NCBI RefSeq assembly: GCF_014084105.1
Contig: NZ_CP048289.1
Location: forward strand, 7,945,922-8,009,921
Direction: 5' to 3'
Source of the DNA: Streptacidiphilus sp. P02-A3a
GTDB taxonomy: Bacteria; Actinomycetota; Actinomycetes; Streptomycetales; Streptomycetaceae
DNA length: 64,000 nt
Shown here: positions 8,798 to 37,463 of the stretch, one piece after another
How the letters are laid out: every line of letters starts with the position of its first letter
Numbering within the stretch: the first letter of the stretch is position 1
Program-made: the position numbers and the translations under genes
The notes under the pieces: generated by a model
Told to the model about the DNA's origin: nothing
Database searches by the model: none
The model's input: only the letters and a program-made list of their open reading frames with translations

Positions 8798-11067
8798 GCC
8801 ACGGGGAAGCCCGACAGCCTCCGGGCGAGTGCGATCCCATGAAGGTCCACGCTCTCATCGTGGCCGTTGAGGACTACGGGTCGTACAGCAAGGACTGGAA
8901 TGTCACCGGCCCGTACGCGGGCGCCCGCTCCTTCCGGGACTGGCTGATCGGACGAGGTGTACCCGCAGGCAACATCACGTTTCTGGGACGACCGCTCCCG
9001 GAGAGCCGGGGGATTGCTCCCAACGAGCCCGAAGCGGGGAGCCCAGCCGATGGCGGGCTGCTGAACGGGACCTCGCTGCAAGTCTTCTTCGGGGAGGTGC
9101 TGCCGGACATCGACGCCGAGTTGCTGTGGGTTTTCTGGGCCGGACACGGCATTACCGACGGCGAGCAACGCCACCAGCTGCTCCTGCCCGCCGACGGCAG
9201 GAAAGGACTGGAAACAGTCGACGCCCGCGAGCTCAGGGACACGCTGATTTCCACGGAGTGGGGAATGAAGAGCGGCACCCACCTGTCGCGAGTGGCCATG
9301 GTGATCGACGCCTGCCAGAACAATCTGCCACCGACCGACAAGGGCCTGAAAACCTGGCCGGTTTCAGTCCGTAGCAAGGACATGCGGAGCACCGCCCGGC
9401 CGTTCTTCACGTCGTTCTCCTGCGGGCCCGACCAGAAGGCCTACACCGGGACGAACAGGACCCATCTCGCCGCGACGCTCATGGAGTATCTGGACGCCAA
9501 CCCGTCGCTCCTGCCCCATCCTCAGCACATGATGGGCCACATCGACCTGGCCTTCGCCAAACGGTCCGAAGCACAGGCGCAGACCCCGAGCTGGGAAATC
9601 CTCAACTGGGGGGAACCGGTCGGAACTGGAGTCTTCGAACTGACGCCGACAGAGGAGGAGTGCGCCCTGGCCCTCCAGTTCCGGCCCGGTCTCGACGACC
9701 GTGAGAAGCGGCGGCGGTGCGTCGAGGAGCTGGAGAACCGCGGTGTGGCGGTCACCGCGGACCACCAAGGCGAGCCGCCCAGTCCCGAACAGCTGGTCGC
9801 GGCCGCGGGCCGGGTCCGGCACGGTCTGCCGACCCTGGTCGACCTGCTCTGCTCCCCGCAGTGGCGGGACGACGAGCACGAGCGCCTCGATCTCGCGGGC
9901 GACCTCGGCAAAGCCGTCAGCCTCATCCACGAGGACGAGTTCCTGACGGTGGCGGAGTACGACACGCTGCTGCCACTTCTCGACCGGGCGGGGGACACGC
10001 TGGAGCAGGTCGCACGGTTCGGGCGCAGCTGGAGCGAGCACCTGCGCGGCATGCCCGTCACCGCACAGGCGGTGACGCGGAAGCTGGAGGCAGCCGGCGC
10101 CCTCAGGGGACGGCTGCCGCTGCTCCTGGGGTTCACCGCACTCCTGGCGGCCCTCACCGGGTCCGTTCCTCCGGACGAGGGACAAGACGCCGTTCCGGAT
10201 GGGCCGTTGCAGACCTGGTGGCTCGGCGTCGCGGCCCGGCTGGGCTACGGTGACCGACTGCTGCGGGACGAGCGGGCCAAGGCAGCCGAGGACGCGTCAA
10301 GGCTTCAGCAGACCCCGGGGGGTTGGCTCCTGGTAGAGGTGCAGACAACCTGCCCCGAGGCGGTTCCTGGACACCCGAACCGCTATGACAGCCGGGCCTG
10401 GTACTTCGATGTCGAGGGCACACACCAGCAGGTCTTCAACGGGTCCGGGTGGACGGACTGGCAGCATTCTCTTGAGGCGGCGGTGGCCGACCACGTCGAC
10501 GAGAATCTCAGCGGAATCGAATTCCTGCTGCCGCAGAGCCAGTTGGAACTACAGGTCGAACGTCTGGCAGTGGAGTACCGAGGGAGGTCCAACGTGCTGC
10601 TCGGACATGTCCACCCGGTCGTCGTGCGATGCGGCGACCGGGAGACAAGTCCGGCCCGACAGGCACAGTGGCAGGACAACTGGAAGCACTGTTCCCAGGA
10701 CCACGACGGCGCGCCTTGGCTGGTCAAGGACGGCGCCGCCCTGAAGGAGCTCACGAAAGGCCTGACCGGTCACCAGGGATGCGTGGAGCTCACCGGGACC
10801 GCGAAGGACTTCAGCGCCGCCCTCGCGGTGTGCCTCCGGGAGGGCAGCCCCATCATCTCGTGGAACCGGTGCACCGGGGACATCCGCCCCCTCCAGAGCC
10901 TTGAACCCATCCACGGCCGCGCTCCCTCCAGTCTCCCCGCGGCGCTCCACGACTGGCGTCGCGCGGGGCCGAGCTCCGGCTCCGACGACGTCGTACTGCT
11001 CTGGGACAACCCCGACCGCCGTACCCAACGCCCCAGACTGCGCTCACCACGAAGAAGGAACAGATGA
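8794..11067 (+). CDS. Caspase-family protease with VMAP C-terminal domain
   Basis: A 757-residue fusion. Residues about 15-250 are a caspase-like (C14) peptidase: KVHALIVAVEDYG as first strand, His118 in WAGHGI and Cys174 in VIDACQNN form the dyad. The middle (about 275-480) is helical and may match the middle or effector-associated region of VMAP proteins. Residues about 500-757 match the VMAP (vWA-MoxR-associated protein) C-terminal domain, with LLVEVQ, a VVVRCGDR-like strand, PIISWNR and a closing VVLLWDNPDRR. VMAPs are described as adaptors or effectors of ternary conflict systems. The ATG at 8794 overlaps the hydrolase stop; MKVHALIV at 8839 is an alternative start with a weaker site. 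Its end overlaps the MoxR gene by four bases. I infer a protease switched on by its ATPase partners. Confidence 0.85.
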   Translation: MSHGEARQPPGECDPMKVHALIVAVEDYGSYSKDWNVTGPYAGARSFRDWLIGRGVPAGNITFLGRPLPESRGIAPNEPEAGSPADGGLLNGTSLQVFFGEVLPDIDAELLWVFWAGHGITDGEQRHQLLLPADGRKGLETVDARELRDTLISTEWGMKSGTHLSRVAMVIDACQNNLPPTDKGLKTWPVSVRSKDMRSTARPFFTSFSCGPDQKAYTGTNRTHLAATLMEYLDANPSLLPHPQHMMGHIDLAFAKRSEAQAQTPSWEILNWGEPVGTGVFELTPTEEECALALQFRPGLDDREKRRRCVEELENRGVAVTADHQGEPPSPEQLVAAAGRVRHGLPTLVDLLCSPQWRDDEHERLDLAGDLGKAVSLIHEDEFLTVAEYDTLLPLLDRAGDTLEQVARFGRSWSEHLRGMPVTAQAVTRKLEAAGALRGRLPLLLGFTALLAALTGSVPPDEGQDAVPDGPLQTWWLGVAARLGYGDRLLRDERAKAAEDASRLQQTPGGWLLVEVQTTCPEAVPGHPNRYDSRAWYFDVEGTHQQVFNGSGWTDWQHSLEAAVADHVDENLSGIEFLLPQSQLELQVERLAVEYRGRSNVLLGHVHPVVVRCGDRETSPARQAQWQDNWKHCSQDHDGAPWLVKDGAALKELTKGLTGHQGCVELTGTAKDFSAALAVCLREGSPIISWNRCTGDIRPLQSLEPIHGRAPSSLPAALHDWRRAGPSSGSDDVVLLWDNPDRRTQRPRLRSPRRRNR

Positions 11068-12206
11068 CCGACGAGGACCGCACCTGGGAGCTCTTCGGCG
11101 ACGGCGAAGCGCCGCCGACGCCCCGAAAGCTGCCGCCGGGGCCGCCATGGCGCCGCTTCGGTCGGCAGTCCCTGCCCCGTGCCCCCTACGTGATCCGCCA
11201 AGAGGACGCGGCCGTGGTCAACACGGCCCTGCACCTGCGTCGGCCGCTCCTGGTGACGGGCTTCCCCGGTGTGGGCAAGTCGTCCCTGGCCCATGAGATC
11301 GCCCGCCAGTTGGGGCTGGGTGAGGTCCTGGTCTGGCCGGTCAACTCCCGTTCCACGCTCAACGACGCGCTGTACCGCTACGACGCGGTCGGGCGCCTGC
11401 GGGACGTGGGCCTGGCCACCAGCAAGCGTGCCCGGGCCGGCGGTGAGGCGGGAGGCCAGGAAGTGGGCGACGACGCGAAGCAGGCGGTGGAGAACTACAT
11501 CACCCTCGGCCCGCTGGGGACAGCCCTGGCGGCCAAGCCGGGCAGGCCTCGGGTCCTGCTCATCGACGAGTTGGACAAGAGCGACCTCGACCTGCCCAAC
11601 GACCTGCTCGTTGCCTTCGAGGACGGCGCTTTCGAGATCCCCGAGCTCAGCCGATTGGCGGTGAGCGATGACGAGGTCGCCGAAGTCGGTCTCATCGGCG
11701 GGCCGCAGGCCATCGACCCGGCCAGGGGCAGCTCCGACGATGTGCGTTCCGGTCAGCCGGTCCCCGCGGCCTCCAGGAACCGAGGGACGGTGGTCGGTGG
11801 CTGGGTCACCTGCGAGGAGTTCCCAGTCATTGTGATCACCAGCAACGGCGAGCGCGACTTCCCCCCGGCCTTCCTGCGTCGCGTCGTCCGCCTCAACCTG
11901 CCCGACCCCAGCCGGGACTACCTGCGGAAGATCGTCGAAGCCCAGTTCGCCGGTCCGCTGGCCGATGCGGATGACACGACCAAGCGCGAACTGGACGAGC
12001 TCGTCGACAGGTTCAGCGCCGCCGCGCAGGACGGGAACCTGGCCACCGACCAGCTCCTCAATGCCATCCACCTCCGGCTCAGCCAAGTACCGCTCGACGT
12101 CAACGTCTTGAGTGCCATCCTCAGTTCTCTCGACGACACCGAGGCAGGGGGGTTCACCCTGTCGTCGACGGACTCCTCCCCCACGGCACACGGCCACCGC
12201 ACATGA
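11064..12206 (+). CDS. MoxR-family AAA+ ATPase
   Basis: A 380-residue AAA+ ATPase. Walker A GFPGVGKSS is at residues 66-74 (Lys72), Walker B LLIDELDKSD has Asp168/Glu169, sensor 1 is ITSNGERDF, and FLRRVVRLNLP carries the arginine finger region. The lid follows to about residue 360. A loop of about 45 residues rich in Gly/Asp/Ser (about 210-250) is inserted before sensor 1. In known vWA-MoxR-VMAP systems this ATPase is the chaperone-like switch that acts on the vWA protein. It is joined to both neighbours by ATGA overlaps, so production of the three proteins is coupled. Confidence 0.9.
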   Translation: MTDEDRTWELFGDGEAPPTPRKLPPGPPWRRFGRQSLPRAPYVIRQEDAAVVNTALHLRRPLLVTGFPGVGKSSLAHEIARQLGLGEVLVWPVNSRSTLNDALYRYDAVGRLRDVGLATSKRARAGGEAGGQEVGDDAKQAVENYITLGPLGTALAAKPGRPRVLLIDELDKSDLDLPNDLLVAFEDGAFEIPELSRLAVSDDEVAEVGLIGGPQAIDPARGSSDDVRSGQPVPAASRNRGTVVGGWVTCEEFPVIVITSNGERDFPPAFLRRVVRLNLPDPSRDYLRKIVEAQFAGPLADADDTTKRELDELVDRFSAAAQDGNLATDQLLNAIHLRLSQVPLDVNVLSAILSSLDDTEAGGFTLSSTDSSPTAHGHRT

Positions 12207-15200
12207 TCGCCCGGCTCGGTGAGGTGCTCGCGGAGGCGCTGCGTGCCTGCGGGTACGACCCCTCGCCCCGTGAACTCACCGAGATCCTCTGGCTGGCCGG
12301 GCAGCTCCCCCCTGCCGCCCGGCCAGAGGTCCCCGCGGAGGAGGAGCCGGCAGACGCCGCCGTGACCGCCGTGGCATCGGAGCCGCCCCAGCAGCAACCC
12401 CCGGCCGCGGCCACGCCCCCCGCACCGCGGGACGATGTCCGCACCGTCGAGACCCGGCCGATCTACTCCGCGGCCAACCGGACCGCGGCGTCCGACGGCC
12501 CACGGGCGTCGTCCATCCGGCTTCCCGTGCCGAGCGCGCTGCCCCGGTCGCGCGAGCTGTCGAAGGCCCTGCGCTCGCTGCGCTCCAACGTCGCCTCACG
12601 CACGACCTTCGAGATCGACATCGCCGCCACGGTCGCCTCCCTCGCCAGTGGCATGCCGGACGTGCTGCTGCAACCGATCCGCGAGCCCCGGTTCGACCTC
12701 ACCCTCATCGTGGACGACGGTGAGTCGATGGCGATCTGGTACGACACCGCCCGTGAACTGCGCACAGCTCTCTACCAGTTGCACGCCTTCCGGCGCACGC
12801 GCTTCCTGGGCCTGAACACCGATCTGGACGACGGCTCCCTGAGCCTGACGACCGAGCCGTTCCGTCTCCACGCACCCGCCATATCCCCCGCGGCCGCGGT
12901 GGAAGCCGGTGAACGCTCGCTCGTCGTCGTGCTGACCGACGGGGTCGGCCTGGCCTGGCATTCCGGGGCAGCCCTCAACCTGCTCTCCTCGTGGGCCCGC
13001 CGAAGCCCGGTGGCCGTCTGGCACCTGCTGCCGGAGGCGCTCTGGCCGGACACCGCCTTGTCCGCCGCCCGCCGAAGGACCACGGCCCCACGCCCTGGCG
13101 TCGCCAACCGCAAGCTCACCGTGCGGGCGCCCCGGATCCGCACCCGGCACGACCGAACGATCCAACTCCCGCTCCCTGTGGTGGACATCGGCGCCGGTAC
13201 CGCCACTGCGGCCTGGGCCCGCCTGATCGGCGCACCCTCGGGCGAGGTGATCCTCCCGCTGATGGACGCCGTTCCGCCCGTCGCGGAGCACGGGACGATC
13301 GACGACGAGGAGTGGCCCGCCACCGAGGTCCCGGCACTGGAACTCCTGGACGGCTTCCTCGGCTCGGCCACCCCGCTGGCCCGAAGGCTGGCCGCCCATC
13401 TGGCCTGTGTCCCACCGATCACCGTCCCCCTCATGCGGCTGGTCCAACAGTCAGCCGCACCGGAGGCGGCTCTTTCGCACCTGGCCGAGGTATTCCTGTC
13501 CGGGCTGCTCCAGCCGACGACAGCCACCGGGGCACCCGCGCCACCGGCCGAGGAGACGCCTTGGGGACAGCGCTACTACGCCTTCCTGCCTGAGGTCGTC
13601 GACCCGCTACGCGAACTGATCCCCCGCTCGGCCGAACATGGCACCAGCACCCTGGTCTCGCGCCACCTGCGCCGGATCAACCAGTCGCGCGACGCGGCCC
13701 TTGCCCTGATTAGTGACCCCAGGGGCACGACCGCGTACACCCCGCAAGCGCCCGAACTGGCCTGGTCCGATCTGCAGTCGACCACCTCCGCGCCATCCGA
13801 TGCCGACGTGCCGTTCGAGGCGCCGTCGATCATCGAGGGACCTGAGGGCATGGGAGGGGCCGCGGTCGCCGAGGAAGGGCCGGTACCTGTCGGCTTCATT
13901 ATCGGAATCGCGCTGGGAAAGGGGCTGCGCATTCGGGCAGCGGCCACGTTGCTGCGCCAGTCCGGCTATCCGGTCCCGGAGCCGACCGCGCTGCCCGACC
14001 TCGTGCCCGAATCCCCGGATGTCGTTGTCCTCAGCCTGCACCTCGACGGAAGCCTGTGGGCCGACCCCGGCCACCAGTGGCTCGACGTGAACGAGCCGGT
14101 GACGATGGGGCATGTGCTGGCAGCCGCGGCGAGCACGGGACAGTCCGCACGACACCTCGCCGAACGCCTGGGCGAACTGGGCTACCGGACGCCCAGCCCG
14201 ACGAAGTTGCCAGCAGACCCACCGGAGAAGTCGGACCGGATGCTGATCAGCCGGGACCTTGACGAGGCCGAGCCCTGGCTCGACGCGAACGAGCCGGTGA
14301 AGGTGGGGCAGGTGCTGTCAGCCGCGGTGAAGACGGGGCAGTCCGCCCAGCGGGTCGCCGAACGCCTGCGTGAACTGGGCTACGACACACCCGACCCAGC
14401 ACAGCTGCCCGAGGTCGCACCCGAGGAGGCCGACCTCATCCTGATCAACCTGGACCTCCACTCGGTGGGTGCGCGGCTCGATCCGGGCGAGCCGACTCCG
14501 ATGGGGCATGTGCTGGCAGCCGCGGTGAGGACGGGGCAGTCCGCCCAGCGGGTCGCCGAACGCCTGCGCGAACTGGGCTACGACGCACCCGACCCGGCAC
14601 AGCTGCCCGACGTCCTACCCGAGGAGGCCGACCAGACACTGATCAGCCAGGACCTCGACGCGGTGCCCCCCTGGCTCGACGCGAGCAGACCAGTGCGGGT
14701 GGGGCATGCGCTGGCAGCCGCGATCGTGACCGAACAGTCCGCGCAGCGGGTCGCCGAGCGCCTGCGCGAACTGGGCTACGACGCACCCGACCCGGCACAG
14801 CTGCCCGACGTCGTACCCGATGAGGCCGACCAGACACTGATCAGCCAGGACCTCGACGCGGTGCCCCCCTGGCTCGACGCGAGCGAACCAGTGCCGGTGG
14901 GGCATGCGCTGACTGCCGCGATCGTGACCGATCAGACCGCGCAGCGGGTCGCCGAGCGCCTGCGCGAACTGGGCTACCACACAACTGCTTCGGCGCAGCT
15001 GCCCGATATCGTGCCGGAGGAGGACGACCGCATCCTGATCAGCCGTCGCCTCGACGGAATGAGCAGGTGGATCGACCCGGCCGAACCAGTGACGGTAGAA
15101 CACCTGCTGACTGCCGCGATCGTGACCGGACGATCCGCACGCGCAGCCGCCGAGCGCCTGCGCGAACTGGGCTACCACACAACTGCTTTGGCGCAGCTGC

Positions 15201-16255
15201 CCGATATCGTGCCGGAGGAGGACGACCGCATCCTGATCAGCCGTCGCCTCGACGGAATGAGCAGGTGGATCGACCCGGCCGAACCAGTGACGGTAGAACA
15301 CCTGCTGACTGCCGCGATCGTGACCGGACGATCCGCACGCGCGACCGCCGAGCGCCTGCGCGAACTGGGCTACCACACACCCGACCCAGCACACCTGCCC
15401 GATATCGCACCAGAGTACGACGACCAGATCCTGATCAGCCGGTACCTCCACAGAGGTCCCCTGGAGGATCCGACAGAGGCCGGTCCCGAGTGGCTCGACG
15501 CGGGCGATCCGGTGGCGATGGGACACGTGTCGGCGGCCGCGATCGTGACTGAGCAGTCCGCACGCACGGTCGCCGAACGCCTGCGAGAACTCGGTTACCA
15601 GACGCCCGACCCGGCAGGCCTACCGGACACCCCCCCGGCGGACGCCGATCGAACCCTCATCAGCCGAGACCTCGACGCGGTGGGGCCGTGGCTCGACGCG
15701 AGCGAGGCGGTGACCGTAGCGCATGTACTGGCAGCCGCGACCGCGATCCAACAGTCCGCACGCGCGGTCGCCGAGCGCCTGCGCGAACTCGGCTTCCAGA
15801 CAAAGCACCCGGCACAGTTGTCCGATGTCATACCAGAGGACGACGACCGAATCCTGATCAGCCGATACCTCGACGGATACGCCCTGGAGGATCTCGATGC
15901 GGATTGGCTCGATGCACGCGAGCCGGTGCCAAAGGGGCATGTGCTGGCGGCCGCGATCGTGACCGGCCGGCCCGCCCTGGCCGTCGCCAACCGCCTGAAC
16001 GAGCTGGGCTACCGCACCCCCGCCGGGGTGCGGTGGCCGGACTTCTCTCCGGAGGACGTCGATCGGACCCTGATCAGCCTGGACCTCGACGCAGTGGGGC
16101 CGTGGCTCGACGCCACCGATCCGGTGACGGTGGGACATGTACTGGCAGCCGCGCGGAAGACGGGATGGTCCGCGCATCGCGTCGGCGAACGCCTACACCT
16201 GTTGGGATACTCCCCTCCCGCCTCGGTCATCCTGCCGGACGCCATCGACAAGTGA
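12203..16255 (+). CDS. SAV_2336/vWA-type protein with long wHTH-like repeat array
   Basis: A 1350-residue protein, much longer than the roughly 550-600 residues of its N-terminal part alone. Residues 1-125 are a short helical start and a Pro/Ala linker. Residues about 160-560 look like the SAV_2336/vWA-like region: FDLTLIVDDGESM (171-175) in the place of the vWA DxSxS metal site and VVVLTDGVG (Thr245/Asp246) as the second metal motif. From about residue 560 to the end there are eleven to twelve units of about 66-76 residues with consensus AERLRELGY.TPDPAQLP, D..LISRDLD, PWLDASEPV, GHVLAAA.VTGQSA. Each unit looks like a small winged-helix module. Two units carry roughly 8-10 extra residues (YLHRGPLEDPTEAG and YLDGYALEDL). 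Start overlaps the MoxR stop. The inferred role is the sensor or scaffold of the conflict system. Confidence 0.85.
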   Translation: MIARLGEVLAEALRACGYDPSPRELTEILWLAGQLPPAARPEVPAEEEPADAAVTAVASEPPQQQPPAAATPPAPRDDVRTVETRPIYSAANRTAASDGPRASSIRLPVPSALPRSRELSKALRSLRSNVASRTTFEIDIAATVASLASGMPDVLLQPIREPRFDLTLIVDDGESMAIWYDTARELRTALYQLHAFRRTRFLGLNTDLDDGSLSLTTEPFRLHAPAISPAAAVEAGERSLVVVLTDGVGLAWHSGAALNLLSSWARRSPVAVWHLLPEALWPDTALSAARRRTTAPRPGVANRKLTVRAPRIRTRHDRTIQLPLPVVDIGAGTATAAWARLIGAPSGEVILPLMDAVPPVAEHGTIDDEEWPATEVPALELLDGFLGSATPLARRLAAHLACVPPITVPLMRLVQQSAAPEAALSHLAEVFLSGLLQPTTATGAPAPPAEETPWGQRYYAFLPEVVDPLRELIPRSAEHGTSTLVSRHLRRINQSRDAALALISDPRGTTAYTPQAPELAWSDLQSTTSAPSDADVPFEAPSIIEGPEGMGGAAVAEEGPVPVGFIIGIALGKGLRIRAAATLLRQSGYPVPEPTALPDLVPESPDVVVLSLHLDGSLWADPGHQWLDVNEPVTMGHVLAAAASTGQSARHLAERLGELGYRTPSPTKLPADPPEKSDRMLISRDLDEAEPWLDANEPVKVGQVLSAAVKTGQSAQRVAERLRELGYDTPDPAQLPEVAPEEADLILINLDLHSVGARLDPGEPTPMGHVLAAAVRTGQSAQRVAERLRELGYDAPDPAQLPDVLPEEADQTLISQDLDAVPPWLDASRPVRVGHALAAAIVTEQSAQRVAERLRELGYDAPDPAQLPDVVPDEADQTLISQDLDAVPPWLDASEPVPVGHALTAAIVTDQTAQRVAERLRELGYHTTASAQLPDIVPEEDDRILISRRLDGMSRWIDPAEPVTVEHLLTAAIVTGRSARAAAERLRELGYHTTALAQLPDIVPEEDDRILISRRLDGMSRWIDPAEPVTVEHLLTAAIVTGRSARATAERLRELGYHTPDPAHLPDIAPEYDDQILISRYLHRGPLEDPTEAGPEWLDAGDPVAMGHVSAAAIVTEQSARTVAERLRELGYQTPDPAGLPDTPPADADRTLISRDLDAVGPWLDASEAVTVAHVLAAATAIQQSARAVAERLRELGFQTKHPAQLSDVIPEDDDRILISRYLDGYALEDLDADWLDAREPVPKGHVLAAAIVTGRPALAVANRLNELGYRTPAGVRWPDFSPEDVDRTLISLDLDAVGPWLDATDPVTVGHVLAAARKTGWSAHRVGERLHLLGYSPPASVILPDAIDK
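13886..16252 (+). repeat. In-frame tandem array, 11-12 units of ~200 bp
   Basis: The 3' 58% of the preceding gene is a direct repeat array. Counting the GYxTPxPxxLP core, units begin near 13964, 14181, 14379, 14577, 14775, 14973, 15171, 15369, 15597, 15792, 16005 and 16203. Most spacings are exactly 198 bases (66 codons); the longer ones reflect short in-frame insertions. Central units are most alike, the outer ones more diverged, as expected for expansion by slippage or unequal recombination within the array. Confidence 0.85.
14971..15366 (+). repeat. Near-perfect 198-bp tandem duplication
   Basis: Copy 1 (14971-15168) and copy 2 (15169-15366) differ at only a few bases: TCGGCG against TTGGCG near the start, and GCAGCC against GCGACC near the end. 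Synonymous positions are also identical, so the duplication is recent or maintained by gene conversion. The two preceding units (near 14571 and 14769) are also very similar to each other over most of their length. Confidence 0.9.
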
Positions 16256-31620: not shown

Positions 31621-31661
31621 TTGACATCGGAAGTTGGTCTAGTCCACCTTGGTCTAGTCCA
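31621..31661 (+). promoter_or_regulatory. Promoter with paired direct repeats
   Basis: TTGACA (31621-31626) is followed by two perfect copies of TTGGTCTAGTCCA at 31634-31646 and 31649-31661, 15 bases apart. The layout recalls the 12-bp direct repeats and DasR-type TGGTCTAGACCA boxes of Streptomyces chitinase promoters, with one base different (GTCCA for GACCA). No chitinase follows. Confidence 0.55.
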
Positions 31662-31682
31662 ACCAGTGGGGCGGAGGTAGGA

Positions 31683-31829
31683 ATGCCAGTCGCGGCTTCT
31701 CGGAGAACTGCCTCCACCGGGCCGACAACTGGCGCGCAATGGTGCGCTGCCGCCACATCCGCATGCCCCGCACCGGATTACCGATCGCGATGTCCGGTCG
31801 CGGACCAGTGGACGCAGGGCCCCCGCTGA
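31683..31829 (+). CDS. Small ORF behind the direct-repeat promoter
   Basis: A 48-residue frame starting MPVAASRRTASTGPTTGAQW and containing three cysteines (Cys21, Cys28, Cys37). The ATG sits in one of the best ribosome binding contexts of the window (gcggaggtaggaATG), directly after the promoter repeats. No similarity is recognised and codon bias is only moderate. It could be a leader peptide, a small protein, or a stump of a lost secreted enzyme. Confidence 0.35.
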   Translation: MPVAASRRTASTGPTTGAQWCAAATSACPAPDYRSRCPVADQWTQGPR

Positions 31830-32020
31830 GGGGTGCCCGCGACCCACCGCCCGGCATCGGAACCGGCCAGTCCCCAGCGCTTCCCCCACCCCCGTTGGCA
31901 CTTCTTCGCGTCCTGAACGGCGACGAGGCCGCCCGCTGCCCCGTCGCCGCCCGAACCGAGCCGGACCACCCGCCGGCCGGCGTCGGTTGCCCATGCCCCA
32001 CCTGCGACAGCCGCTGGTGA
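31790..32020 (+). CDS. Possible Cys-rich small protein before PhyH cluster
   Basis: An open frame with high GC at third positions over its last 45 codons. The C-terminus carries LLRVLNGDEAARCPVAARTE and then VGCPCPTCDSRW, four cysteines in 28 residues. No ribosome binding site supports the ATG at 31790, or those at 31763 or 31739, so the start is unsure. It ends 49 bases before a biosynthesis-like operon; a precursor peptide or small metal-binding protein is possible but unproven. Confidence 0.25.
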   Translation: MSGRGPVDAGPPLRGARDPPPGIGTGQSPALPPPPLALLRVLNGDEAARCPVAARTEPDHPPAGVGCPCPTCDSRW

Positions 32021-32068
32021 GCGGTCGATCCGCCCAGCGCCAGCAAGATTCGATCCTGGAGTGATTGC

Positions 32069-33142
32069 GTGCCGACGCCCGACCGATATCTGCACCGAGC
32101 CCCCTCCGACCGTCCGTACTTCAGCGCCGACGGCGAGACGTACCTGGCGCAGACCCCGTTGCGCGAGCTGAAGAAGTCCAAGGACCTCCGGGTGCTCACC
32201 GAGGAGGACTTCGACTTCTGGCAGACCTACGGCTACATCGTCGTCAGGGAGGCGATTCCGGCCGACGCGGCGAAGCGCCTGCTCGATTTCTCCTGGGAAT
32301 TCCAGGGGCTCGATCCGGACCGCCCCGACACCTGGTACGAGGAGCGGGAGTACCGGTCCGACCTGGACCGGGAACTGCACATCTACGGATTCGTCGAGGC
32401 TTACCACCACCAGCTCATCTGGGACAGCCGGCAGACCCAGCGGGTCTACGACGCTTTCGTCGACGTCTGGGACTGCGAAGAGCTCTGGGTGACCCTGGAC
32501 CGGCTCAACCTGAATCCGCCCAATATCAAGAACCGCGACCGCGCCCTTATCGCACCCACCGACAAGGGTTTCGACATCGAACTCCACTGGGATGTGGACA
32601 CCACGCTCGGCGTGCTGCCGCAGCGGGTCCAGGGAATCATCGCGCTCAACGACACCCAGCCGGACCACGGCGGGTTCCAGTGCAACCCCGAACTGTTCCG
32701 CCGGTTCGACCCGTGGCGGATCACCCAGCCGGACGACCGGGACCCGATCCGGCCGGACGTGGACCGCACGGAGTTCCCCGTGGTCCGACCGGAGCTCAAG
32801 GCAGGCGACCTGCTGATCTGGAACGGCCTGCTCGCCCACGGCGTCGCCCGCAACACCTCGGCCGAGGGCGTCCGGTCGGTCCAGTACCTCTCGATGATGC
32901 CCGCGCTGGAGACCAACCAGGCCATGCGGCAGTCCCGGATCGACTCCTGGCGCGAGCTCAGCACCCCGGACTGGAACGCGACGCTGGTCGGCGACGCGAA
33001 GCAGCACGAATCCCTCAGGTATCCCACCGCCACGCTGAGCGACCTGGGCGCGAAGCTGCTGGGGCTCGATTCCTGGAGCGGCAAGAACTCGGACGAACCG
33101 GAGAGCGGACATGCGCAAGATCTGCCTGACCCTACCCACTAA
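32069..33142 (+). CDS. Phytanoyl-CoA dioxygenase (PhyH)-family oxygenase
   Basis: A 357-residue non-haem Fe(II)/2-oxoglutarate oxygenase. The facial triad is visible: His173 and Asp175 in ELHWDVDTT, and distal His257 in LAHGVARNTS, with Arg261 or Arg269 as the 2-oxoglutarate partner. The N-terminal half has EEDFDFWQTYGYIVVREAIP, typical of the family. The substrate is unknown, probably a small hydrophilic metabolite. GTG at 32069 follows GGAG. It overlaps the DUF6271 gene by 32 bases and is the first clear gene of a five-gene operon with a decarboxylase, an acyltransferase and an exporter. Confidence 0.88.
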   Translation: MPTPDRYLHRAPSDRPYFSADGETYLAQTPLRELKKSKDLRVLTEEDFDFWQTYGYIVVREAIPADAAKRLLDFSWEFQGLDPDRPDTWYEEREYRSDLDRELHIYGFVEAYHHQLIWDSRQTQRVYDAFVDVWDCEELWVTLDRLNLNPPNIKNRDRALIAPTDKGFDIELHWDVDTTLGVLPQRVQGIIALNDTQPDHGGFQCNPELFRRFDPWRITQPDDRDPIRPDVDRTEFPVVRPELKAGDLLIWNGLLAHGVARNTSAEGVRSVQYLSMMPALETNQAMRQSRIDSWRELSTPDWNATLVGDAKQHESLRYPTATLSDLGAKLLGLDSWSGKNSDEPESGHAQDLPDPTH

Positions 33143-34427
33143 CCGGGCCTGCTCCGCCACGCTGTCGGCGATCGGCGAGGAAGCGGACTACGCCGCCAAG
33201 GCCTTCGACGTCGAGGCGCACCTGCTGATCCTGGACTCCTCCCCGGAGGACGTCTTCGCGGTGCACGCCCGGGTCATCGAGGGGTCGAACCGGGCGCCGA
33301 ACGTGGTCGTGCACCACCTGGACGAGGCCCGGCAACGCGCCTTCCTGCAACGGGTGATCGACCACGCCGACGTCGACAACCCGGATCTGGTGCTGGACCT
33401 GATGCTCCCGGCCGCCCTCTCCTACGGCGCCTGCACCAACCGCGCGTTCCTGATCGGCAGCGCGCTCGGCTGCGAGTCCGTGCACCGCCGGGACTCCGAC
33501 AGCAGCTACCAACTCCTGCACGGCGAACCGGTCTTCCCGATCCACCACGAGCTCACCTCGCTCGGCCGGACCGGCGCCGAGGCGGCCGACGGCGTCACCG
33601 TGACCGAGCTCGACCCGGCCCACGCGCACAAGCCGGTGGTGCTGGTGGGCAGTTCCTTCGTGGGTGAACTGTCGGTGGACATCGGCGAGATCCAGCAGCT
33701 CGACCCCGAGGTCTACTACGACGTGGTCAGCCTCTGGGCCCCGGTCGAATGGCCGGAGGAGAAGAAGCGGGAGCTGGTCGCCGAGTCCTTCCGCGGCGAC
33801 GGCACCGACCCCTTCACCGGCGACCACTCGACGCTCACCATCGTCGACCCGATGCGGGTGGACATGTGCAACATCAGCTTCCACCAGGTGCACGAGCTGG
33901 TGCCGCTGCCGCCCGCGACCAACACCATCGGCAGCGACTACTTCCTGATGCACCTGGTCCACGACGCCGCGCTGCCCGGCGTCCTGCACAACCGCAACAT
34001 CGTCAACTTCTACACCGAGGAACGCCGCACCGACTCCGGCTTCGTGGCCTACCAGATGCGGCTGACGAAGTTCTTCCTGTCGATGCTCTACTTCAACCAC
34101 GTCTACGACCGGATGGCCGCGGCCGGCCAGTCGCTGCTGGACGGCCAGGACCGGGTGCGGCCCGCCACGATCATCGAGTTCGCCCGCGAGAGCGCCCAGC
34201 TGGACCGGGCGGAGAACCTCCAGCGGCTGCGCGTGCTCGACCGCGCCTACCGCGAACTCGGCGGCCGGTACGCCCAGTTCGCCGACATCCTGGCGCTGCG
34301 CGGAAAGCGGCTACTGGACGAGGCGCAGCGCGACATCGAGGACTTCGCGCTGCTGATCGAGGCCTGGGGGCCGCTGGTGCGCGCCAGCAAGGTCATCGGC
34401 GTCCACCCGTCAGACCGGCACCAGTAA
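33111..34427 (+). CDS. DUF6271 family protein, possible GT-A-like transferase
   Basis: A 438-residue protein that I recognise as DUF6271, a Streptomyces family of unknown function. The start MRKICLTLPTNRACSATLSA, then FDVEAHLLILDSS, has the alternating strand-helix pattern of a nucleotide-sugar (GT-A) fold. CESVHRRDSDSSYQ (126-133) has a DxD-like Asp128-Ser-Asp130 in a fitting place for a metal/nucleotide-sugar site. Other conserved-looking blocks are VVSLWAPVEWPEEKKRELV, MCNISFHQVHE and a helical C-terminus ending EDFALLIEAWGPLVRASK. The glycosyltransferase idea is inference from pattern. ATG follows ggagagcgg; it overlaps the PhyH gene and is 19 bases from the decarboxylase gene. Confidence 0.85.
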   Translation: MRKICLTLPTNRACSATLSAIGEEADYAAKAFDVEAHLLILDSSPEDVFAVHARVIEGSNRAPNVVVHHLDEARQRAFLQRVIDHADVDNPDLVLDLMLPAALSYGACTNRAFLIGSALGCESVHRRDSDSSYQLLHGEPVFPIHHELTSLGRTGAEAADGVTVTELDPAHAHKPVVLVGSSFVGELSVDIGEIQQLDPEVYYDVVSLWAPVEWPEEKKRELVAESFRGDGTDPFTGDHSTLTIVDPMRVDMCNISFHQVHELVPLPPATNTIGSDYFLMHLVHDAALPGVLHNRNIVNFYTEERRTDSGFVAYQMRLTKFFLSMLYFNHVYDRMAAAGQSLLDGQDRVRPATIIEFARESAQLDRAENLQRLRVLDRAYRELGGRYAQFADILALRGKRLLDEAQRDIEDFALLIEAWGPLVRASKVIGVHPSDRHQ

Positions 34428-34446
34428 CCGGATCCGGAGCACAAGC

Positions 34447-35625
34447 ATGGACGAGAGCAAGCCTATGCGCGCCGCCCTGGCAGCCGCTGCCGAGGACCAG
34501 ATCGTCTTCGACCTCGCCGGAATCGCAGCCCAGTACCGAACGCTGAACCGGGAACTCCCCGGCGTCGGCGTCCGGTTCGCGATGAAGGCGTGCCCGGTGG
34601 ACGAGGTGCTTTCCTGTCTGGCGGCGCAGGGCGCCGGTTTCGACGCGGCCAGCCCCAACGAGATCCGGCAGGCGCTGCGGACCGGCGTGCCGGTCGAGCT
34701 GATCCACTACGGCAACACCATCAAGTCGGACCAGCACATCGCCGAGGCCTACCGGCTCGGGGTCCGCGACTTCGCCACCGACTGCCTGGAGGACGTGGCG
34801 GCGATCGCCGCCCACGCCCCCGGCGCCCGGGTGTTCTGCCGACTGGCCACCGACGGGGCCGGGGCGCTCTGGGGCCTCAGCCACAAGTTCGGCTGCTCCC
34901 CCGGCGACGCGGTGCTGGTACTGGCGGCGGCGCAGGCGGCCGGGCTGGTCCCCTCCGGCCTGTCGGTGCACGTCGGCTCGCAGCAGATGACCGCCGACGC
35001 CTGGCGGGACACCTTCGACCACTTGGCCGACGTGCTGGCCACCCTGAACCAGCGCGGCATCTTCCCGGACCACGTCAACCTCGGCGGCGGCCTGCCCGCC
35101 CAGGGCTACCTGGACAAGCACGGCCGACCGCTGGAACCGCCGCTGGACAAGATCTTCACGGCGATCCGCGAGGGCATGGTCCGGCTCGGCGAGGTCTCGG
35201 CGACCGCCCTGGACTTCGTCATGGAGCCGGGGCGCCACCTGGTCGCCGACCACGGCGCGATCAGGGCGCACGTCTCCCGGCTCTCCGCCCGGCAGCAGCT
35301 GAACGGGGAACGGCAGTACTGGCTCTACCTGAGCTGCGGAAAGTTCAACGGCCTGTACGAGATGGACGAGCTCCAGTACCGGCTGGTCTTTCCCTCGCAC
35401 CCGCAGGGCGGCGAACGCGTCCCGGCCGTGGTCGCCGGGCCGACCTGCGACAGCGACGACGCCTACAACCACCGGTACAGCCTCACCCAGGTGCCCAAGG
35501 CCGTCGCCTCCGGGGATCCGGTCTGGATCCTCTCCTGCGGCGCCTACGCCACCAGTTACACGACCCAGGGGTTCAACGGCTTCGCTCCGCTGCCGTACAC
35601 CCCGATCCACGGCGGGGAGCAGTAG
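34447..35625 (+). CDS. Type III PLP-dependent decarboxylase (ODC-like)
   Basis: A 392-residue enzyme of the alanine-racemase-fold decarboxylases (ornithine, lysine, diaminopimelate, carboxynorspermidine types). Lys47 in RFAMKACP would bind PLP, His in SVHVGSQ stacks on the ring, GGGLP binds the phosphate, EPGRHLV follows, and Cys334-Asp335 in AGPTCDSDD match the substrate-contact motif of ornithine decarboxylases. The product would be an amine from a basic or modified amino acid. Compared with true ODCs it lacks the usual 310-helix sequence I would expect for ornithine, so the substrate is open. It is followed without a gap by the GNAT gene (tagATG). Confidence 0.88.
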   Translation: MDESKPMRAALAAAAEDQIVFDLAGIAAQYRTLNRELPGVGVRFAMKACPVDEVLSCLAAQGAGFDAASPNEIRQALRTGVPVELIHYGNTIKSDQHIAEAYRLGVRDFATDCLEDVAAIAAHAPGARVFCRLATDGAGALWGLSHKFGCSPGDAVLVLAAAQAAGLVPSGLSVHVGSQQMTADAWRDTFDHLADVLATLNQRGIFPDHVNLGGGLPAQGYLDKHGRPLEPPLDKIFTAIREGMVRLGEVSATALDFVMEPGRHLVADHGAIRAHVSRLSARQQLNGERQYWLYLSCGKFNGLYEMDELQYRLVFPSHPQGGERVPAVVAGPTCDSDDAYNHRYSLTQVPKAVASGDPVWILSCGAYATSYTTQGFNGFAPLPYTPIHGGEQ

Positions 35626-36120
35626 ATGGACCAGGAGCCGCGGATCCGCGCCGTCTCCGACCACGACTGGAACAGCATCGTGGCACTGGAGGCCGACGCC
35701 TACACCGAGTCCGAGCTGTCCGAGGAGCGGGCCGCGCTGGAGTCCCGGGCCAGCGCCTCACCGGCCACCTGCTTCGTCCTGGACGTCGAGCGGCGGACGG
35801 TGGGCTACCTGCTGGCGCTGCCCTACCCGGTGTTCCAGTACCCCGACCTGACCCGGGCCGAATCGACGGTCTTCGACTCACGCAATCTGCATCTGCACGA
35901 TCTCGTGATCGACGAGCGCTTCCGCGGCCGGGGACTGGCGAAACACCTGCTGCGCCATCTCGCCGAGGTGGCCAGATCACGAACGCACGATCGGATATCC
36001 CTGGTCGCCGTCGGCGGCAGTGACTCCTTCTGGTCGGCCAACGGATACCGCGCCCACCACGAGGTCGCGCTCCCCAGTAGCTACGGCGCCGACGCCGTCT
36101 ACATGTCGAAAGCGGTGTGA
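35626..36120 (+). CDS. GNAT-family acyltransferase of the PhyH cluster
   Basis: A 164-residue acyltransferase. The cofactor-binding motif is LVIDERFRGRGLAKHLLRHL (about 93-112), with the late SDSFWSANGYRAHHEVALP giving the last strands. It starts directly after the decarboxylase stop and ends in a GTGA overlap with the MFS gene, so it belongs to the same transcript. It may acylate the amine made by the decarboxylase, as a tailoring or self-protection step; that is inference. Confidence 0.88.
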   Translation: MDQEPRIRAVSDHDWNSIVALEADAYTESELSEERAALESRASASPATCFVLDVERRTVGYLLALPYPVFQYPDLTRAESTVFDSRNLHLHDLVIDERFRGRGLAKHLLRHLAEVARSRTHDRISLVAVGGSDSFWSANGYRAHHEVALPSSYGADAVYMSKAV

Positions 36121-37391
36121 GGATGCTCGACCAGGAACTCGGCCAGGATGTCGAAGCCGACCGGAGAACCACCGGCGCGGGCGCCGGGGAGCAGGAGCGG
36201 CCGGGACGCGGATTCCGGCTCCGGGACGACTTCCGCCGGGCGCAGCTGGCGATCGCGGCGCTGTTCTGGGCGCTCGGGTTCCAGTACGGCACCTGGGCGT
36301 CGCGGCTGCCCACGATCAAGGCGCGGCTGGACCTCAGCACCGCCGAGGTCGGGCTGCTGCTGATGGCCTGCGGCGCGGGCGCCGCCGCGTCGTTCCCGCT
36401 GGTGGCGGTGCTGACGAAGCGGCTCGGCTCGCGTCGGCTGGCCTGCCTGTCGGCGGTCTGCCTGGGCCTGCTGCTGCCCGCGCTGGCGGTGGCGCCGGAC
36501 TATCCGGTGGCGTTGGTGATCGTCTGCTGCGACGGCATCCTGGTCGGCTGCCTGAACGTCGCCATGAACGCCCAGGGGGCGGCGCTCGAAGTCGTCTACG
36601 ACCGGCGGTCGATGGGCAAGTTCCACGCGACCTTCAGCGCCGGTTCGCTGTGCGCGGCGCTGCTGGCGTCCGGGATGAACCTGCTGACCTCGTCGCTGCT
36701 GGCGCACTTCGCGGTGGCCGCCGCGATCCTGCTGCTGCTGATCGCCTACGCCCGGCCGGGGCTGCTGCCCCAGGACCAGCAGCCCGAGCCGGAGCCGAAG
36801 GGGGAGTCGACGCAGGCGGAGCCGAAGCAGCGGCGGCTGCCGCTGCCGTCCCGGGTCACCATCTGGATGGGTCTGGCCATGGCCTTCGGCACGGTGACCG
36901 AGGGCGCCATGAACGACTGGTCGGCGCTCTACCTGAAGAACGTGGCCAAGGCGGCGGCGGAGCTGGCGCCGATGGGCATCGCCGTGGTGTCGGTGATGAT
37001 GGTGCTGGCCCGGGTGTTCGCCGACGGCTGGCGCGCCCGCTGGGGCGACGCGCGGATCGTCCGGGTCGGCAGTGCCCTGGCCGGGCTCGGGCTGGCGGTG
37101 GCGCTGCTGGTCGGCGGGGTGGTCCCGGCGCTGCTCGGGTTCGCCTGCGTCGGGCTCGGTGTCGCCGCGGTGACGCCCTGCGTCTACATGGCCGCGGCCC
37201 GGCAGGGCTCGGACGCGCTGGCCCTGGTCGCCGCCATGGGCACCACCGGCATGCTGGCCGGGCCCGCGGTGATCGGTTTCATCGCCAGCGCCAGCAGCCT
37301 GGCCTGGGGCATGGGCGCGGTCGCCGCCTCGGCGGTGCTGGTGTCGCTGTGCAGCACCCGGATCAACTGGCCCGCGAACGCCGAGAAATGA
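36117..37391 (+). CDS. MFS transporter, likely exporter of cluster product
   Basis: A 424-residue major facilitator protein with twelve hydrophobic segments. Family marks: YGTWASRLPTIKARLDLS in the first loop, a central charged Pro/Glu/Gln loop (QDQQPEPEPKGESTQ) and MARVFADGWRARWGD-like second-half loop (LARVFADGWRARWGDA). The layout resembles the sugar/drug MFS group with FucP/YbjJ-like members. The GTG at 36117 overlaps the GNAT stop; an ATG six bases later is equally possible. Last gene before a very strong terminator; likely exports the product of the four upstream genes. Confidence 0.88.
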   Translation: MRMLDQELGQDVEADRRTTGAGAGEQERPGRGFRLRDDFRRAQLAIAALFWALGFQYGTWASRLPTIKARLDLSTAEVGLLLMACGAGAAASFPLVAVLTKRLGSRRLACLSAVCLGLLLPALAVAPDYPVALVIVCCDGILVGCLNVAMNAQGAALEVVYDRRSMGKFHATFSAGSLCAALLASGMNLLTSSLLAHFAVAAAILLLLIAYARPGLLPQDQQPEPEPKGESTQAEPKQRRLPLPSRVTIWMGLAMAFGTVTEGAMNDWSALYLKNVAKAAAELAPMGIAVVSVMMVLARVFADGWRARWGDARIVRVGSALAGLGLAVALLVGGVVPALLGFACVGLGVAAVTPCVYMAAARQGSDALALVAAMGTTGMLAGPAVIGFIASASSLAWGMGAVAASAVLVSLCSTRINWPANAEK

Positions 37392-37412
37392 CCGCCGACA
37401 GCTGAGCACTGA

Positions 37413-37457
37413 CACGCCGGGGCCGGGTGGGGGCGGCCCCCACCCGGCCCCGGCGTG
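37413..37457. terminator. Very long bidirectional terminator hairpin
   Basis: A perfect 21-bp stem (37413-37433 with 37437-37457) around a 3-base loop, placed 21 bases after the MFS stop and 6 bases beyond the end of the convergent htpG gene. No U-run. It isolates the PhyH cluster from htpG. Confidence 0.9.
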
Positions 37458-37463
37458 TGCCGA

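Follow-up and report, generated by a model that had tools for sequence, protein, structure and literature searches.

A conserved PhyH-DUF6271 operon of Streptacidiphilus with putative DasR operators and a predicted sugar-nucleotide enzyme

We analysed a stretch of 64,000 nucleotides of Streptacidiphilus sp. P02-A3a (NZ_CP048289.1, positions 7,945,922 to 8,009,921; the whole stretch is called the window below). The window contains five genes arranged head to tail on the plus strand (32069-37391), which encode in this order a PhyH-family oxygenase, a DUF6271 protein, an ornithine-decarboxylase-like enzyme, a GNAT acetyltransferase and an MFS transporter. A preliminary description of this DNA had proposed a compact biosynthetic-like cluster of these five genes, and gene calls and family matches bore out its gene content and compactness. 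The features of the locus, including two putative operators (dre) of the regulator DasR, are as follows.

31621-31626, plus strand: -35-like hexamer TTGACA, 8 bp before dre 1
31635-31646, plus strand: dre 1, TGGTCTAGTCCA, putative DasR operator, exact
31650-31661, plus strand: dre 2, TGGTCTAGTCCA, tandem copy, exact
32069-33142, plus strand: PhyH-family Fe(II)/2-oxoglutarate (2OG) oxygenase, 357 aa, GTG start; PF05721, 3.4e-10 (above the family cut-off)
33111-34427, plus strand: DUF6271 protein, 438 aa; PF19787, 772 bits; DSD at residues 128-130
34447-35625, plus strand: fold-III pyridoxal phosphate (PLP) decarboxylase, ornithine/lysine-decarboxylase-like, 392 aa; Orn_Arg_deC_N, 2.5e-39
35626-36120, plus strand: GNAT acetyltransferase, 164 aa; PF00583, 1.5e-13; RFRGRG acyl-CoA motif at residue 98
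36117 (GTG) or 36123 (ATG) to 37391, plus strand: MFS transporter, presumed exporter, about 422-424 aa; PF07690, 5.5e-28
37412-37434 / 37436-37458, no strand assigned: inverted repeat with perfect 23-bp arms and 1 nt between them, likely terminator shared with the convergent htpG

The MPTP start of PhyH agrees with that of its orthologues. The PhyH and DUF6271 genes share 32 nt. A gap of 19 nt separates DUF6271 from the decarboxylase gene, which in turn abuts GNAT; GNAT and MFS overlap with the GTG start at 36117 and nearly touch with the ATG start at 36123. The upstream neighbour is a divergent gene for a ClC-type chloride channel, about 745-830 nt off depending on the channel start, and the downstream neighbour is htpG, which ends at 37464. 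As the preliminary description had stated, no family match to a nonribosomal peptide synthetase, polyketide synthase, terpene or ribosomally synthesized and post-translationally modified peptide core was found among the five proteins.

We collected 138 DUF6271 relatives with six peptide patterns of the window protein and kept the best 80 of the 138 loci, which carry close relatives (59-73% identity) and were chosen by DUF6271 alone. tblastn with the window proteins detected PhyH in 80/80 of them, the decarboxylase in 78/80, GNAT in 78/80 and MFS in 75/80. All five genes were present in 75/80 loci, and their order and strand were identical in 74/80. The exceptions were an inverted MFS gene (L038), MFS genes that were not seen (L063 and L078), a contig edge that cuts the operon (L091), and a variant with a condensation domain described below (L085 and L093). 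Median identities to the window proteins were 77% for PhyH, 71% for the decarboxylase, 68% for MFS, 66% for DUF6271 and 57% for GNAT, and the loci span Streptomyces, Actinacidiphila, Streptantibioticus, Actinokineospora, Amycolatopsis and Actinocrispum. Genes in the loci were called with our own codon-score caller, which fused or missed some of them: DUF6271 of L095 was fused with the next gene, and the GNAT genes of L035 and L076 were missed yet detected by tblastn. Beyond the upstream neighbour, the surroundings vary widely between loci; thus, the operon behaves as a module, and we rejected a single insertion with fixed neighbours because the neighbours beyond the adjoining glycoside hydrolase gene (GH3, see below) differ widely. 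Chance adjacency is untenable, since the arrangement is conserved in loci picked by DUF6271 only. The preliminary description had suggested looking for co-occurrence of the five families; they do form a fixed operon elsewhere, and we are nearly certain that it is a conserved biosynthesis and export operon.

Of 394 genomes sampled evenly from the class, 13 contained DUF6271, with 12 strong matches and one weak match in two frames. PhyH at at least 71% identity was present in 12/394 genomes, exactly the 12 strong DUF6271 carriers, and there was one further relative at 42%. The decarboxylase at at least 61% identity was present in 7/394 genomes, all of them DUF6271 carriers; among the other five carriers, the condensation variant is present in four (G039, G243, G340 and G378), and only a 59-aa decarboxylase piece is present in G089. 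The G089 locus (L099) keeps PhyH, DUF6271, GNAT and MFS, and its decarboxylase gene is a remnant (59 aa matched in L007).

The best solved relative of the decarboxylase is the lysine/ornithine decarboxylase of V. vulnificus (2plj, 142 bits). Like the fold-III ornithine/lysine decarboxylases (2plj, 5gjm and Trypanosoma ornithine decarboxylase), the operon enzyme keeps the PLP-binding and catalytic residues: the PLP lysine K47 in 81/82 sequences (one gap), and H175, the GGG loop (G213-215), E260 and R263 of the EPGR motif, and C334 and D335 of the Cys-Asp motif in 82/82 (one of 83 non-window sequences was lost to the length filter). Unlike in those enzymes, the substrate loop is fixed differently. 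Compared with five relatives of about 40% identity, the operon orthologues have S296 in 82/82 (Asp in 5/5 relatives), Y304 in 81/82 (Ala or Val), M306 in 74/82 (Thr in 5/5) and D307 in 82/82 (Glu or Leu). These relatives belong to other families of the class and, in 4/5 examined (L147-L150), stand beside genes for S-adenosylmethionine decarboxylase (speD) and aminopropyltransferase (speE), neighbours that suggest their substrate specificity. The biosynthetic operon itself has no spermidine gene (speD or speE) within its five genes. The altered loop would fit, short of proof, a substrate other than free ornithine.

These comparisons bear on whether the operon serves polyamine housekeeping, with a plain ornithine/lysine decarboxylase, an acetyltransferase and an exporter detoxifying diamines. 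The identity of the closest solved relative and the speD/speE neighbourhood of the relatives at about 40% identity would agree with such a role, and GNAT and MFS would suit acetyl-diamine export. However, it leaves the two most constant genes, PhyH and DUF6271, unexplained, and it is at odds with the variants that lack both decarboxylase and GNAT, with the patchy distribution of the decarboxylase (only in DUF6271 carriers) and with the substrate loop altered at fixed positions. We consider it very improbable.

The preliminary description had noted operator-like signals in the leader. Such signals are present, and it had not recognised them as tandem dre. Dre 1 and dre 2 are the only sites within one mismatch of TGGTCTAGACCA in the whole window, in which two exact copies were observed versus about 0.0017 expected under an order-1 Markov model. 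According to PMC4398421, the DasR consensus is A(G/C)TGGTCTAGACCA(G/C)T, and DasR binds in electrophoretic mobility shift assays to a dre with the core TGGTCTAGTCCA upstream of scr5239; glucosamine-6-phosphate (GlcN-6-P) is given as the DasR effector in a published paper.

We extended the search to 92 loci, namely the 80 loci above, 11 further loci and the window; L101, which has no PhyH, was left out, and L105 and L077, whose contigs are equally long (270,358), are probably one genome counted twice. A dre within one mismatch was found between 700 nt upstream and 150 nt inside PhyH in 60/92 loci, with 77 sites altogether, and the density was 1.01 per kb in this interval versus 0.024 per kb over the remainder of these loci. 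Of the 56 exact sites, 51 have a TTGACA-like hexamer (at most one mismatch) 7-8 bp before them; two of the remaining exact sites are second copies 23 bp away, and three have no hexamer. This spacing indicates that the dre sits in a promoter reading towards PhyH. All six loci of the condensation type also have a dre, TTGTCTAGACCA being the sole site within one mismatch in L097 and L098, which suggests that DasR control goes with PhyH-DUF6271. The genome of the window encodes a GntR-UTRA protein (L110, 14485-15246), divergent from sugar ATP-binding cassette (ABC) transporter and GH3 genes with dre-like sites; this context suggests that it is the DasR orthologue.

A published binding region may correspond to this promoter in S. 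coelicolor. In PMC4398421, the SCO6032-SCO6033 intergenic region was bound by DasR in ChIP-on-chip experiments at 24 h and 54 h, with four positive experiments in total (its Table 1); its dre is cttggtctagtccatt, at -154 and -278, and SCO6032 is a beta-N-acetylhexosaminidase. In S. violaceorubidus (L090), a divergent GH3 gene is followed by PhyH, DUF6271, decarboxylase, GNAT and MFS, and the 16-mer cttggtctagtccatt lies between GH3 and PhyH in a gap of 415 nt, versus the 416 nt implied by the published offsets (154+278-16). Because the 16-mer is identical and the spacing matches, SCO6033-SCO6037 would be the S. coelicolor copy of the operon, with SCO6033 as the PhyH gene. In the open-access literature, we found SCO6032-SCO6037 mentioned in PMC4398421 alone, and there only as SCO6032 and its intergenic region with SCO6033. 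The operon thus resembles the DasR regulon of Streptomyces in its dre core TGGTCTAGTCCA and in a putative S. coelicolor counterpart bound by DasR in vivo; it differs in that the target is a biosynthesis and export operon, whereas PMC4398421 assigns the region to the hexosaminidase SCO6032.

A NagZ-like GH3 gene adjoins PhyH in 56/92 loci, divergently in 35 and on the same strand in 21. The partner belongs to PF00933 (as tested with a representative), has no long hydrophobic run at its start, and carries KHFPGHG...DSH in 56/56 cases; in 15 loci, ABC permease genes precede it. In the genome of the window, the GH3 orthologue (75% identity) is unlinked, 7.7 Mb from the operon, and has dre-like sites close to where it begins. 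The same genome has another GH3 (55%), which belongs to a das-type locus that also contains a GntR-UTRA regulator and an ABC transporter. At E <= 1e-190, the orthologue was found in 6/394 genomes, namely 5/12 operon carriers (including the window genome) and 1/382 others (Fisher 6e-08, not corrected for kinship; related species are non-independent, so that Fisher values overstate certainty). G225 and G317 have a more divergent GH3 beside the operon, which this cut-off missed. We rejected GH3 as an obligatory sixth gene, since it is adjacent in only 56/92 loci.

The linkage and co-distribution of GH3, together with DasR sites on the same promoters, could also mean that the product mimics N-acetylglucosamine (GlcNAc) and inhibits hexosaminidases or enzymes of chitin metabolism; the linked GH3 would then be a resistant target copy, and PhyH, the decarboxylase and GNAT would build an acetamido-bearing amine. 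The acetamido group could come from GNAT. A role in sugar uptake, however, would account equally for GH3, as its position behind ABC permease genes illustrates, and a ring-forming enzyme was not seen; such a mimic seems quite improbable to us. We considered a nagstatin-type inhibitor, for which the open-access literature gave no nagstatin gene cluster for comparison, the sole relevant paper found being a review on chemical tools.

The preliminary description had recorded DUF6271 as having no assigned function. In the open-access literature we found no paper with this name, and the predicted structure of the protein is that of a GT-A sugar-nucleotide enzyme. An AlphaFold2 model of the window protein, computed with 63 locus sequences, had a pLDDT of 92.2 and a pTM of 0.91. 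Foldseek matched it to GT-A glycosyltransferases (22 matches at E <= 1e-3). In structural alignment with VIA-align, the best match was MtdL, a nucleoside diphosphate (NDP)-pyranose mutase of family GT75 (Z 23.3, rmsd 3.3, 309 residues over model residues 1-427), followed by rice UAM2 (Z 19.4), mannosyl-3-phosphoglycerate synthase (16.7) and others at 15 or below; 590 of 999 aligned chains had Z of at least 8, and the 50 matches listed are nearly all annotated as sugar-nucleotide enzymes. The DxD-type motif expected after a Rossmann-like strand in GT-A enzymes is represented by D128-S-D130, which follows the strand 123-127 and is invariant in 64 sequences, and H293 is also invariant. A relative from Apilactobacillus, at only 20% identity, shares H293 and the motifs PT[N/D]R (close to the N-terminus), HRRDSD and G[S/T]D. 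Judged from this model, DUF6271 has a predicted GT-A fold with a probable metal site, membership in GT75 not being claimed, and it likely acts on a sugar nucleotide.

The mannosyl- and glucosyl-3-phosphoglycerate synthases, GT-A enzymes whose acceptor is a small polar acid, resemble DUF6271 in the nucleotide-sugar site (Z 13.7-16.7 among the matches listed), whereas DUF6271 has HRRDSD and operon partners that are an oxygenase and a decarboxylase. The likeness to the GT75 mutases (MtdL and plant UAM/RGP) extends to the GT-A part, the DxD-type motif, and the core and C-terminal helices, a shared fold that by itself shows no function. DUF6271 has, however, no significant sequence match to the mutases, and in our own alignment its segment from the DxD to the VD motif is some 24 residues shorter than theirs. 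Comparison with four bacterial GT75 (PF03214) proteins by hhalign gave a probability of 0.1 and P of 0.68, which is not significant, although D130 fell on the third Asp of the bacterial GT75 DxD in the weak local alignment. None of 64 DUF6271 members matched PF03214 at E <= 1, phmmer against the PDB sequences gave no match at E <= 10, and a DUF6271 profile against the PDB gave only chance matches (TRAF6 and a designed protein), which we discarded.

As best full-length structural matches, MtdL and UAM2 raise the question of whether DUF6271 is itself an NDP-sugar pyranose/furanose mutase, a furanosyl compound then being made with a glycosyltransferase encoded elsewhere. The key residues of MtdL, according to PMC9937993, are the DXD motif at 109-111, His287, Arg159 and Arg257. 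Residues 131-189 of DUF6271, between DSD and D190, where MtdL R159, the essential conserved Arg associated with autoglycosylation in GT75, would fall in our own alignment, contain no invariant Arg, other invariant Arg residues being elsewhere. The hhalign result argues against a mutase, as this absence may too, and we regard a mutase as quite improbable. A mutase would also have no user there, since no second glycosyltransferase was seen among the five operon proteins or the variant proteins scanned, and a transferase is therefore favoured; a glycosyltransferase acting on an amino acid is possible, if somewhat short of probable. Pro9 of DUF6271 aligns, in our own alignment, with MtdL Thr13. 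Plant UDP-type enzymes carry Pro at this position. Thr13 of MtdL is a base-selecting residue and has been mutated to Pro, according to PMC9937993. Pro9 may be a weak hint of a uridine diphosphate (UDP) sugar.

In PhyH, H173-x-D175, H257 and R269 are invariant in 35 sequences, giving the HxD...H triad and the 2OG-type Arg; we take H173, D175 and H257 to bind the metal and R269 to bind 2OG, as is general for such enzymes. With the conserved catalytic residues of the decarboxylase and the MFS-type transporter, this agrees with the enzyme set named in the preliminary description. We read no substrate from the Foldseek list of PhyH, a general mix (TlxI/J, SnoN, Gig2, HygX, KanJ and others). Residues 232-328 match the fungal GlcNAc-inducible Gig2 oxygenases (PF07350, DUF1479) at 2e-08. 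Candida GIG2 was named for its induction by GlcNAc; only the C-terminal part of PhyH matches, however, and the shared link to GlcNAc may be coincidence. In L145 (4095-13901), two carbamoyltransferase genes flank a 40% PhyH relative, with a radical SAM/SPASM gene close by. In L101 (3636-9634), a further carbamoyltransferase gene is found close to a distant DUF6271 relative that seems to be divided between two frames. Both neighbourhoods hint that a newly introduced hydroxyl group is decorated.

Variant clusters separate the constant genes from the exchangeable ones. In L085, L093 and L095-L098, PhyH-DUF6271 is followed by a protein with a stand-alone condensation domain and by a different MFS, and there are a divergent seryl-tRNA synthetase (SerRS)-like protein (tRNA-synt_2b), an acyl carrier protein (ACP)-like protein and a phosphopantetheinyl transferase. 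The ACP of S. clavuligerus scored 18.7 bits by Pfam, just under its cut-off. Locus L078 has ligase and ACP genes along with the decarboxylase. Because the decarboxylase and GNAT are missing from variants in which PhyH-DUF6271 stays, PhyH-DUF6271 is the core. GNAT (acetyl) and the ACP, ligase and condensation domain (aminoacyl) may be alternative N-acylating modules.

Several carriers are plasmids. S. clavuligerus plasmid NZ_CP065235 has the condensation variant followed by two transketolase genes, and S. cattleyicolor pSCAT has the five-gene form with GH3 and dre. A PhyH-DUF6271 pair on S. clavuligerus NZ_CP065257.1 (L152, 7937-10332) has no adjoining decarboxylase, condensation domain or MFS; its neighbours are MbtH, MBL-fold and lysyl-oxidase-family genes. 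tblastn gave 29 plasmid records, six of them from Apilactobacillus kunkeei. The compact cluster on A. kunkeei plasmid OX335149.1 (L154, 8453-18851) has genes for DUF6271, a SerRS-like ligase, an ACP, an MFS, two ATP-grasp ligases, a methyltransferase, a class IV aminotransferase and a split transketolase (11/34 annotated proteins of the plasmid were scanned). A plasmid of 32.9 kb carrying ketosynthase genes for a putative polyketide has been described (PMC9648514), and 4/6 of the A. kunkeei records with this DUF6271, of 32.8-33.0 kb, are probably this plasmid. Phage carriage of the Apilactobacillus relative was considered and gave no match.

The split transketolase genes by DUF6271 in the S. 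clavuligerus and Apilactobacillus clusters, with a SerRS-like protein and an ACP, and the class IV aminotransferase in the latter, would suit a route in which PhyH-DUF6271, instead of modifying a standard amino acid, construct an unusual one from a sugar, with carbon units supplied by transketolase partners in some clusters. The five operon genes, however, include no transketolase or aminotransferase, and the genes right after MFS in L093 and L095, two other loci of the condensation type, are not transketolase as judged by their sequence starts. We think this route improbable.

We tentatively propose, short of calling it probable, a self-contained specialised-metabolite operon under the GlcNAc-sensing DasR, which would make and export a hydroxylated, probably glycosylated, N-acylated amino-acid derivative. 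PhyH would hydroxylate a basic amino acid; DUF6271, as a metal-dependent GT-A enzyme, would transfer a sugar to it, most likely from UDP-GlcNAc; the ornithine-decarboxylase-like enzyme would take off the carboxylate, GNAT would N-acetylate the amine and MFS would export the product. With chitin or GlcNAc plentiful, GlcN-6-P would free the two dre of DasR, and the operon would be expressed. The GH3 beta-N-acetylhexosaminidase might supply GlcNAc from chitin fragments or trim a GlcNAc-bearing form. Human LH3, a lysyl hydroxylase with a GT-A glycosyltransferase, likewise performs hydroxylation and then sugar transfer, and its structure 6fxr appears in the Foldseek list of DUF6271 (E 8.3e-03); as one fused protein with protein substrates, it is an analogy only. 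Taken with all its steps, the route is unlikely, its substrates, donor sugar, step order and product being our own suggestions.

Several observations weigh against this proposal. No dre within one mismatch was found in 32/92 loci in the stretch tested: three of these are truncated by contig ends, in 12 the operon stands behind a same-strand sugar-ABC-GH3 set whose own promoter lies outside that stretch (three further loci of this arrangement do have a dre), and 15 lack both a dre and an adjacent GH3. The window dre precede the PhyH start by 419-434 nt; on the other side, 312-390 nt away, is the divergent chloride-channel gene, and the dre could control that gene instead. SCO6033 is assigned as PhyH from the identical site and spacing rather than from an S. 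coelicolor record. GH3 is not adjacent in 36/92 loci and, at E <= 1e-190, is missing in 7/12 carriers and present in 1/382 others. The comparison with bacterial GT75 was not significant, the PhyH model is poor (pLDDT 57; no substrate is deduced from it), and the donor sugar is suggested only by the regulation and GH3. The decarboxylase and GNAT are dispensable in variants, hence not core, so that the modified amine foreseen in the preliminary description stands as one possible outcome. We still consider DasR/GlcNAc control of the window copy very likely.

At the borders of the operon, the roughly 400 nt between the promoter-dre block and the PhyH start (31662-32068) contain a 93-aa open reading frame (31739-32020); evidence favours neither a long leader nor a small upstream gene. 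The preliminary description had placed a 21-bp terminator at the 3' end. The inverted repeat is there, with arms perfect over 23 bp, with a folding z of -6.67 (versus 200 shuffles) and no T-run, and, lying between convergent genes, it may serve both the operon and htpG or neither as an intrinsic terminator. Elsewhere in the window, three adjoining genes (8839-16255) may form a conflict or signalling system. Their products are a protein of 742 aa that matched no NCBIfam family, one of 380 aa that weakly matched MadB-type AAA ATPases, and one of 1350 aa that begins with a SAV_2336 N-terminal domain.

Specialised-metabolite operons are themselves of a known kind. In the open-access literature, we found no description of this operon architecture, the PhyH-DUF6271 core or its probable DasR control; the GH3 partner, the DasR sites, the predicted GT-A fold of DUF6271 and the PhyH-DUF6271 core are additions to the preliminary description. 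PhyH-DUF6271 may, at nearly even chance, be the core of an undescribed cluster class without a classical core enzyme. In such a class, an unusual amino acid, glycosylated or derived from a sugar, would be made by an oxygenase together with a new GT-A family and finished by interchangeable modules (decarboxylase and GNAT, or ACP, SerRS-like ligase and condensation domain); the class would be GlcNAc-switched in actinomycetes and have distant DUF6271 relatives on plasmids of honeybee lactobacilli. If so, a widespread cluster type would have been overlooked for want of a core enzyme, apparently even in S. coelicolor (putatively SCO6033-SCO6037). DasR, known as a nutrient-dependent switch for antibiotic production, would directly control a whole biosynthetic operon, and this control would tell how to switch the operon on, by GlcNAc addition or dasR deletion. 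For DUF6271, there would be a fold prediction, a metal site and an activity that can be tested.

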